NCBI GenBank assembly: GCA_017433125.1
Contig: JAFRHT010000099.1
Location: forward strand, 1-50,320
Length of the DNA stretch: 50,320 nucleotides
Direction of reading: 5' to 3'
From: Solobacterium sp.
GTDB lineage: Bacteria; Bacillota_I; Bacilli_A; Erysipelotrichales; Erysipelotrichaceae
Shown: piece by piece, positions 9,413 to 12,459 of the stretch
Layout: each line of letters opens with the position of its first letter
Position numbering within the stretch: the stretch's first letter is position 1
Position numbers and translations under genes: made by a program
The notes under the pieces: model-generated
What the model was told of the DNA's origin: nothing
The model's database searches: none
The model's input: the letters and a program-made list of their open reading frames with translations, nothing else

Positions 9413-9447
9413 AAATACCCGGCGTCACGGTGATGCCGGGTTTATTT
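9413..9447 (-). terminator. Probable terminator of the FAD dehydrogenase gene
   Basis: ACCCGGC (9417-9423) pairs with GCCGGGT (9435-9441), with AAAT/ATTT flanks extending the stem. On the minus strand it directly follows the stop codon. The U tract is short and interrupted. Confidence 0.55.
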
Positions 9448-10992
9448 CCGATATACGGTGATGACCTGTTCGGCCTGCCTGATGCCGTCCACAGCACTGG
9501 AAATGATTCCGCCGGCATAGCCTGCCCCTTCCCCGCATGGGTATACCCCGGCACACGCAATACTCTCTCCATGTTCGTCCCGCGGCATGCGGACCGGAGA
9601 GCTGGACCGTGATTCCATCCCCACCATGATGCCCCGTTCAATAAATCCGGGGACTTTTCTGTCAAACGCACGGAAGCCTTCGTCCAGTGACCGGTTGACT
9701 TCGGCGCTGAACAGTTCATGCATATCCGCGCTTTCTGTCCCGCGCGGGAAGGATGTCCTGACTGCCCACTGCTCCGTTTCTGTATCCTGCAGGTAATCAC
9801 GGATATTCTGGGCCGGGGCCCGGAAACCGTCCCGGTAAGCCTTTTTTTCCAGTTCTTCCTGGAACCGGAACCCGTCCAGCGGGTCCCCGTGATAGAAATC
9901 CGTCTGGGGGATCTGTACCAGGATGGCGCTGTTGGCGTTCTTTCCGTCCCTGGACGCGTAGCTCATGCCGTTGACCGCAAGCTGGCCCTCTGCCGTTGAA
10001 GCAGGTACAACCACCCCGCCCGGGCACATGCAGAAACTGTAAACCCCGCGCCCGGTGGATGCGGTATATGACAGCCGGTAACTGGCCGCCCCGAGGGCCG
10101 GGTGGCCGGCATATCTGCCGTACTGGTTCTGATTGATCAGTTCCTGCGGATGCTCGACCCGCACCCCGGCCGCGAAATCCTTCGGTACAATCTGCAGCCC
10201 GTCAGCCAGCAGCTGCGCATAGGTTTCCGCGGCACTGTGGCCCAGGCACAGCAGAATTTCATGGCAGGGAATCACTCCCTGATTTGTCACAGCCCCGGTC
10301 ACATGGCCATCCCGGACCTGCAGGGACAGCAGTTTTGTTTCAAACCGGACCTCCCCGCCCAGCCGGATGATCTTGTTGCGGATATTGCGGACAATGACCT
10401 GCAGCTGGTCCGTGCCGAGGTGCGGCATAGCCTGGTACAGGATGGCCGGATCAGCCCCGGCTTCCACGAACTCCTCCAGCACTTTGTGAATCCGCGGATT
10501 CTTGATCCGGGTGGTCAGCTTGCCGTCTGAAAAGGTACCGGCACCCCCTTCCCCGTACTGCACATTGCTTTCCGGATCCAGGATGCCTTCCGCAAAGAAG
10601 CGCTGCACATCCGCGGAACGTTCCTCCACGCAACGGCCCCGCTCGATAATCAGCGGCTTCATGCCGGCTTCTGCCAGGATCAGCCCGGCAAACATGCCGG
10701 CCGGCCCAAAGCCGGCAATGACCGGACGCGCCGCCGGCCTGTCCGGTTTCAGGGGAATATAGACATCCTTCTGCCCGGCCGTGACATCCCTGCGGCGCAG
10801 GTACTTTTCTTCATTCTTCAGATCCGCCAGCACCGTGTAACTGTAATGCAGGTCATCGTGCCGGGCATCGAGCGATTCCCTCTCAATGGAAAAAGACAGA
10901 ATATCAGACGGCCGGCAGTGAAGCTTCCGGGCAATCTGTTCTTCTGTCAATGTTTCATCCAGCTGACAAATAATCTGTGTGATCTTCAGCAT
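9442..10992 (-). CDS. NAD(P)/FAD-dependent oxidoreductase (COG2509 type)
   Basis: 516 aa, the usual length of this uncharacterised FAD-dependent dehydrogenase group. A short N-terminal domain (1-80) precedes the FAD-binding Rossmann segment PVIAGFGPAGMFAGLILAEA (about 92-111) and the ERG motif that closes it. The family-typical segment NVQYGEGGAGTFSDGKL (about 143-159) and a C-terminal GEGAGYAGGIISSAVDG complete the FAD site. The physiological electron donor and substrate are unknown for the family. The ATG at 10992 lacks a Shine-Dalgarno sequence; it lies 12 bases after the permease stop, so translation may be coupled, or a GATAAT 8 nt upstream could give a nearly leaderless mRNA. Confidence 0.9.
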   Translation of the reverse strand: MLKITQIICQLDETLTEEQIARKLHCRPSDILSFSIERESLDARHDDLHYSYTVLADLKNEEKYLRRRDVTAGQKDVYIPLKPDRPAARPVIAGFGPAGMFAGLILAEAGMKPLIIERGRCVEERSADVQRFFAEGILDPESNVQYGEGGAGTFSDGKLTTRIKNPRIHKVLEEFVEAGADPAILYQAMPHLGTDQLQVIVRNIRNKIIRLGGEVRFETKLLSLQVRDGHVTGAVTNQGVIPCHEILLCLGHSAAETYAQLLADGLQIVPKDFAAGVRVEHPQELINQNQYGRYAGHPALGAASYRLSYTASTGRGVYSFCMCPGGVVVPASTAEGQLAVNGMSYASRDGKNANSAILVQIPQTDFYHGDPLDGFRFQEELEKKAYRDGFRAPAQNIRDYLQDTETEQWAVRTSFPRGTESADMHELFSAEVNRSLDEGFRAFDRKVPGFIERGIMVGMESRSSSPVRMPRDEHGESIACAGVYPCGEGAGYAGGIISSAVDGIRQAEQVITVYRK

Positions 10993-12279: not shown

Positions 12280-12309
12280 ATACTCTCTCCCTCCGGGCTG
12301 TCTTCTCAG

Positions 12310-12347
12310 AAAAAAACTCATGTACAGCCCAAAAACCATACATGAGT
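12310..12347 (-). terminator. Riboswitch-controlled terminator in the permease leader
   Basis: On the minus strand ACTCATGTA pairs with TACATGAGT (plus-strand arms 12316-12324 and 12339-12347, 14-nt loop) and runs into seven T (12310-12316). It ends about 30 bases before the permease ATG. Its 5' arm shares CTCATG with the 3' strand of aptamer helix P1, so the two structures exclude each other. Confidence 0.8.
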
Positions 12348-12426
12348 CTCACAATTTCACTATAAGCCGGGTATGGAACCGTGATGACGGCTTATAAACG
12401 CACTGCGTCTGTTACTCCCTCAAGCA
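12341..12426 (-). promoter_or_regulatory. Candidate yybP-ykoY (Mn2+) riboswitch aptamer
   Basis: Read on the minus strand, the leader shows the landmarks I know for this class in order. P1 5' strand CTTGAG is followed by loop L1 GGAGTAAC, a small hairpin P2 (ACGC-AGT-GCGT), and P3 ATAAG with its partner CTTAT enclosing CGTCATCACG and CCGG. GTGAGA and the P1 3' strand CTCATG close it. The conserved GGAGTA and CGTCA loops form the metal site in this class. Helix P4, optional in the class, is not evident. The P1 3' strand is also the 5' arm of the following terminator, so ligand binding should prevent termination (ON switch). Assigned by eye against remembered consensus; a covariance search would settle it. 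Confidence 0.72.
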
Positions 12427-12431
12427 GATGC

Positions 12432-12459
12432 ATTTTACCACAGTTTCCCGTACCGTCCA
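12432..12459 (-). promoter_or_regulatory. Promoter of the riboswitch-permease transcript
   Basis: TGGACG (12454-12459), 16 bases, then an extended TGG-TAAAAT (-10 at 12432-12437). The predicted start of transcription falls at the 5' strand of aptamer helix P1, as expected if this drives the riboswitch RNA. It lies just after the murD stop. Confidence 0.6.

Follow-up and report, generated by a model that had tools for sequence, protein, structure and literature searches.

Introduction

Riboswitches of the yybP-ykoY class (Rfam RF00080) are the closest described relatives of the RNA reported here. Their aptamers follow the layout P1.1-L1-P1.2, P2, P3.1-L3-P3.2, with GGAGUA and NAGA as the two strands of L1, (U/A)CA in L3, and P1.1 in common with a terminator, all of which recur in the present leader. 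In crystal structures, Mn2+ is contacted by N7 of an adenosine in L3, A41 in L. lactis and A48 in X. oryzae, with L3 taking the form UCA in the former and ACAUACU in the latter (PMC6754395). In the L. lactis riboswitch, P1.1 is stabilised by Mn2+ and the overlapping terminator is prevented (PMC11087558). The L. lactis and X. oryzae aptamers possess a fourth helix, which is not obligatory for the class and is absent from our leader; a yybP-ykoY aptamer built around a three-way junction, like the one presented below, has been described for the mgtA leader of S. pneumoniae (PMC9495176). The class regulates MntP, UPF0016/GDT1, TerC and PMR1-like P-type ATPases. The permease discussed here has this class of regulator in common with them, but belongs to an unrelated protein family.

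A second described RNA, SSRC10 (RF02617), agrees with our leader in sequence order and length. It differs in being listed as an sRNA that no clan connects with RF00080, and in its target: in S. pyogenes it was mapped to the interval separating SPyM3_0439 from SPyM3_0440, the gene of a putative calcium transporter, and finishes with a terminator (PMC3675131).

The leader between murD and the permease gene

The window analyzed is a stretch of 50,320 nucleotides (contig JAFRHT010000099.1) from a Solobacterium sp. genome. In it, 188 bases separate the end of murD (12468) from the start codon of a permease gene (12279). On inspection, the minus strand of this gap contained every element that a first-pass annotation had quoted from it, each in its place (Table 1). 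These include the P1 strands CTTGAG and CTCATG, here assigned to P1.1, which pair with one U-U mismatch, and the P3 strands ATAAG (12395-12391) and CTTAT (12366-12362). The promoter postulated for the gap corresponds to a sigma-70-like candidate with 9 of 12 consensus matches, the 1 site found in a scan for which 0.3 were expected. The leader strand folded more stably than shuffled sequences (z -2.6). The gene downstream of the permease, for an FAD-dependent protein, is probably co-transcribed with it and may share its regulation; in relatives, this gene does not recur beside the permease.

Table 1. Features of the leader and the genes it precedes, in window coordinates
Feature	Position	Strand	Basis or remark
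Sigma-70-like promoter (TGGACG, 16 nt, TAAAAT, TG extension), candidate	12432..12459	-	Consensus match only
Aptamer, yybP-ykoY class (Mn2+), three-way-junction form (very probable)	12339..12425	-	Model R1, 69 bits, E 1.2e-17
P1.1 5' strand CTTGAG	12419..12424	-	Sequence; helix covaries in relatives
L1 5' strand GGAGTA	12413..12418	-	Identical in 98/98 copies
GGAGTAAC	12418-12411	-	Sequence
P1.2 5' strand ACAG, partner TTGT 12354-12351	12409..12412	-	4/4 P1.2 pairs with double changes
P2 hairpin ACGC-AGT-GCGT	12398..12408	-	R1 alignment; 4/4 pairs with double changes
P3.1 5' strand TATAAGCCG, partner 12369-12361	12388..12396	-	R1; 8/8 model pairs with double changes
CGTCATCACG	12389-12380	-	Sequence
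L3 UCAUCAC	12381..12387	-	(U/A/C)-C-A start in 98/98; A at 12385 corresponds to the Mn2+-contacting residue
P3.2 hairpin and P3.1 3' strand	12361..12380	-	Sequence, R1, covariation; includes CCGG 12370-12367
L1 3' strand GAGA	12347..12350	-	NAGA in 98/98; GTGAGA spans 12352-12347
P1.1 3' strand CTCATG	12341..12346	-	Common to the terminator 5' arm
Intrinsic terminator ACTCATGTA...TACATGAGT, then T-run	12310..12347	-	Minimum-energy fold
Putative ribosome-binding site GGAGGGAG	12287..12294	-	Sequence, inferred
Permease, ion transporter superfamily (CitMHS/ArsB/DASS fold), 424 aa	11005..12279	-	
FAD-dependent protein (PF21688)	9442..10992	-	Starts 12 bases past the permease stop

Identity of the leader RNA

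At gathering thresholds, Rfam matched a tRNA alone in the window. RF00080, which the first-pass annotation had proposed as a check on its assignment of the leader to the yybP-ykoY class, gave no match in the window, and none on 271 bases of the leader region at permissive thresholds. The sole permissive match on these bases was to SSRC10 (12308-12424, 35.8 bits, E 2.4e-5); it covered all 113 model positions and stayed below the gathering score of that family.

A covariance model, R1, was trained on nine leaders that precede homologous permeases in other species; the window and a relative 97% identical to it were kept out of the training set. R1 matched the window leader with the score given in Table 1. 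It was also applied to two regions of E. coli K-12, neither of which had been used in training. In 7 kb around mntP, the known mntP leader, 115 nt ahead of the gene, ranked first (18.8 bits, E 0.006), and in the alx region there was a partial match to the alx leader (10.9 bits, E 1.2). Within the genus, R1 found the subtype in 53 of 60 genomes, whereas the RF00080 cut-off was passed in none. The only RF00080 matches in these genomes, three in number and all sub-threshold, coincided with R1 hits, two of them being mntP leaders. The Rfam model for Mn2+ riboswitches thus misses the entire three-way-junction subtype throughout the genus; its threshold is a rule of detection and describes no structural feature. 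The missing fourth helix, of which the sequence and the R1 alignment reveal no trace in the window leader, does not exclude membership in the class, because the three-way form has been described as canonical for S. pneumoniae mgtA.

The first-pass annotation had also named findings that would speak against its own proposal, namely a low covariance score together with further failures. The RF00080 score did fall below threshold, but this model fails on the subtype across the genus. The class assignment itself is upheld by the independently trained R1 model, by covariation, by invariant metal-site residues, by the leaders of mntP and P-type ATPase genes, and by the recurrence with the permease. 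From these comparisons of sequence, we consider with very little doubt that the leader represents a yybP-ykoY-class riboswitch in its three-way-junction form.

Covariation and metal-site residues

In an alignment of 98 aptamer copies, 26 of 27 base pairs had changes on both sides, 90% of the cells were paired as against 28-42% with the partners slid, and 0 of 500 shuffles reached the observed values; since the alignment was fitted to the R1 structure, these pair counts favor the model. A separate alignment of 38 copies gave the same picture of covariation. Support extended to all five helices (P1.1, P1.2, P2, P3.1 and P3.2).

Both strands of L1 and the start of L3 fit a single pattern in all 98 copies, window included (Table 1), and the L3 adenosine is invariant. 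The two L3 forms known from crystal structures are both represented among these copies: the UCA of the window matches L. lactis, and a rarer form, ACAUAYC, matches X. oryzae. The idea that two copies (L014 and L016) might be aptamers without the L3 motif was rejected, as their ACAUAYC loop is the X. oryzae form and they are ordinary members.

Overlap of P1.1 with the terminator

A terminator reusing the 3' strand of P1 had been described for this leader, and the minimum-energy fold reproduces it. The P1.1 3' strand lies wholly within the terminator 5' arm (12347-12339), and its 6 nucleotides are all paired downstream, followed by TTTTTTT. A simple terminator scanner listed nothing in the window leader, though the fold shows both hairpin and T-run. 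Comparison with relatives points to the same arrangement: a downstream hairpin takes up four or more of the six nucleotides of the P1.1 3' strand in 32 of 36 permease leaders, and a T-run is present in all 36. The platform varies, with the hairpin that captures P1.1 being followed by a second, T-tailed hairpin in L003 and L014. Because the P1.1 3' strand is positioned to pair either within the aptamer or within the terminator, the leader would be expected to act in the cell as an ON switch for Mn2+.

Recurrence before homologous permeases

Of 100 relatives searched, 27 had permease homologues, every one of them a member of the genus of the window, and a matching leader stood just upstream at 14 of 28 permease loci in this genus set. 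A scan of genome contigs yielded 70 permease loci, mostly from metagenome-assembled ruminant-gut Bacillota; the one named isolate species among them was Lactimicrobium massiliense. The first-pass annotation had suggested a survey for the aptamer before homologous permeases, and R1 located it at 36 of the 70 loci. In 34 cases it directly preceded the permease, and in two (L065 and L084) it preceded an operon in which a Na/Pi-cotransporter gene (Na/Pi-cotransporter-PhoU) is followed by the permease gene. At about half of the 70 loci, R1 detected no leader.

The pairing recurs in differing gene neighborhoods. In the permease tree, the leader-bearing rows (40 of 78) are scattered, so that 16 changes are needed, at least 12 of them forced by well-supported branches. 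Such recurrent gain or loss of a leader beside one gene argues that the two are functionally connected. In the limited part of the literature that was covered, we found no earlier report that pairs a yybP-ykoY riboswitch with an ArsB-, CitMHS- or NhaD-like permease.

Seven of the homologues without a detected aptamer (L079, L080, L082, L083, L086, L087 and L090) have a conserved gene order, in which the permease sits behind cation/proton-antiporter-like and glycosyltransferase-like genes, named by eye.

Other genes preceded by the aptamer

The aptamer is not confined to permease genes. Fourteen R1 hits in the genus are placed 169-203 nt upstream of an mntP domain on the same strand, and a further hit precedes a P-type cation ATPase gene (L135). 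At L084, one aptamer stands before the Na/Pi-permease pair and a second before the next gene, which encodes a P-type ATPase. Other targets comprise Na/Ca-exchanger, Na/Pi-cotransporter-PhoU, flotillin/band-7 and ABC-exporter genes. Of these, the Na/Pi-cotransporter, flotillin and ABC-exporter families are not straightforward exporters of Mn2+. Since all share the aptamer class, the substrate of the permease cannot be deduced from its regulation alone.

The window genome also encodes MntP (L134), and hence the permease need not be the sole or main Mn2+ exporter of its genome. No aptamer was found before this mntP gene, even with filters off, and no Nramp importer was found in the genome. A tendency for the aptamer to stand before mntP or before the permease, never before both (3 of 15 versus 7 of 12 genomes; p 0.057, uncorrected for kinship), was too weak to be retained.

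Several of the other targets merit a brief description. In about a dozen genomes (L136, L140, L144-L146, L150, L155, L161, L165, L171 and L173), the aptamer leads a gene of the Na/Ca-exchanger family, and the products are candidates for Mn2+ or Ca2+ exporters. Na/Pi-cotransporter-PhoU genes are likewise frequent (L139, L149, L151, L160, L163, L166, L170 and L174, in addition to L065 and L084), a hint that phosphate export may be connected with Mn2+ load. Band-7/flotillin-like genes follow the aptamer in L137, L154, L158, L167, L169 and others. In three genomes (L138:158-1873, L148 and L157), a protein of 558-572 aa without a Pfam match is encoded directly after it.

The permease as a candidate Mn2+ exporter

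Among Pfam families, the permease matched CitMHS best (189 bits), followed by DctM and ArsB; the ArsB score of 27.6 lies above the cut-off of 22.2, but CitMHS fits far better. NCBIfam models for MamN, DASS, ArsB and NhaD all scored far below their cut-offs, as exemplified by the curated ArsB models, for which the permease reached 27.6-45.2 bits against cut-offs of 415-760. These remote matches, to ArsB, NhaD, MamN and DASS/SLC13 (VcINDY), run over nearly the full length of the protein. The predicted structural model (pLDDT 88.7) has the fold of VcINDY, NaS1 and ArsB (10tp), with TM-scores of about 0.82, while identity to solved relatives is 14-19%. The two SNT motifs, which hold Na+ and carboxylate in DASS dicarboxylate carriers, were not found in the permease. 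In the alignment with VcINDY they are replaced by D108-N109-V110 and D333-N334-I335, and both Asp-Asn pairs are invariant in 44 homologues.

Two acids in place of the carboxylate-binding serines would suit a cation better than a dicarboxylate. In view of this exchange and of the regulation by the riboswitch, Mn2+ efflux appears to be the likeliest function, a reading which the fold also accommodates and which we consider reasonably probable. The permease is therefore a good candidate for a new kind of Mn2+ exporter, and the riboswitch supplies a substrate hypothesis for a group of ArsB/CitMHS-like permeases to which curated family models assign no name. By a slight balance of probability, we would go further and regard it as the founder of a new Mn2+ exporter family within the ion transporter superfamily. 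The two Asp-Asn motifs would form the cation site, and the family would belong to a broad Mn2+-responsive regulon of gut Bacillota that also comprises Na/Ca-exchanger, Na/Pi-transporter and flotillin genes.

Taken as a whole, the observations are best explained by a Mn2+-sensing three-way-junction riboswitch controlling a permease that most likely exports Mn2+, and we regard this explanation as likely. Without Mn2+, the P1.1 3' strand would pair into the terminator hairpin, and transcription would stop before the permease gene. When Mn2+ rises, L1 would be docked against L3 via the invariant adenosine 12385, presumably with Mn2+ bound. Docking would stabilize P1.1 and block the terminator, and the permease would be made. 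It would then lower cytoplasmic Mn2+, most likely by export. H+ or Na+ would probably be exchanged for the metal through an elevator movement, in which the two Asp-Asn pairs substitute for the Ser-Asn-Thr motifs seen in dicarboxylate carriers.

The cargo might be a different one. The aptamer would then still be a yybP-ykoY relative, and the permease would carry, for example, a metal-citrate or phosphate complex, Na+/H+ or an oxyanion within a broader response to Mn2+ load. We consider this possible, but clearly less probable than Mn2+ efflux. It draws on the best Pfam match, as the studied members of CitMHS carry citrate, some of them with a metal, and on the Na/Pi-cotransporter-PhoU family, which shares an aptamer-led operon with the permease at two loci and often follows the aptamer by itself. 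The replacement of the Na+- and carboxylate-binding SNT motifs of VcINDY by invariant Asp-Asn pairs argues against such a cargo, as do the established targets of the class, which are Mn2+ efflux systems, and the mntP and P-type ATPase genes found with R1.

Metal specificity and the relation to SSRC10

Some yybP variants are expected to sense other divalent ions, probably, according to a review (PMC7266159), and the target list in the genus is broad. A leader of altered specificity, sensing a divalent metal other than Mn2+, nevertheless seems improbable to us, as the L1 and L3 residues match the Mn2+-binding forms and R1 covers mntP leaders.

Since SSRC10, which the window leader matches, was first reported as an sRNA with a terminator (PMC3675131), the present RNA could in principle act mainly in trans. 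We give this reading very little credence: SSRC10 lies directly before the gene of a putative calcium transporter, the present leaders precede transporter genes on the same strand, and a terminated leader would itself resemble an sRNA. The yybP-ykoY order of its sequence elements, its position before a putative transporter gene and its terminator end suggest that SSRC10 is likewise the leader of a Mn2+ riboswitch, classed among the sRNAs. That an ordinary terminator and an unrelated structure after murD should match the motifs by chance, as the negative RF00080 result might suggest, is refuted for practical purposes by the R1 E-value of 1e-17, the strong covariation and the recurrence before homologous permeases.

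The aptamer is also found repeatedly within single genomes of the genus, with up to eight copies per genome (G025).
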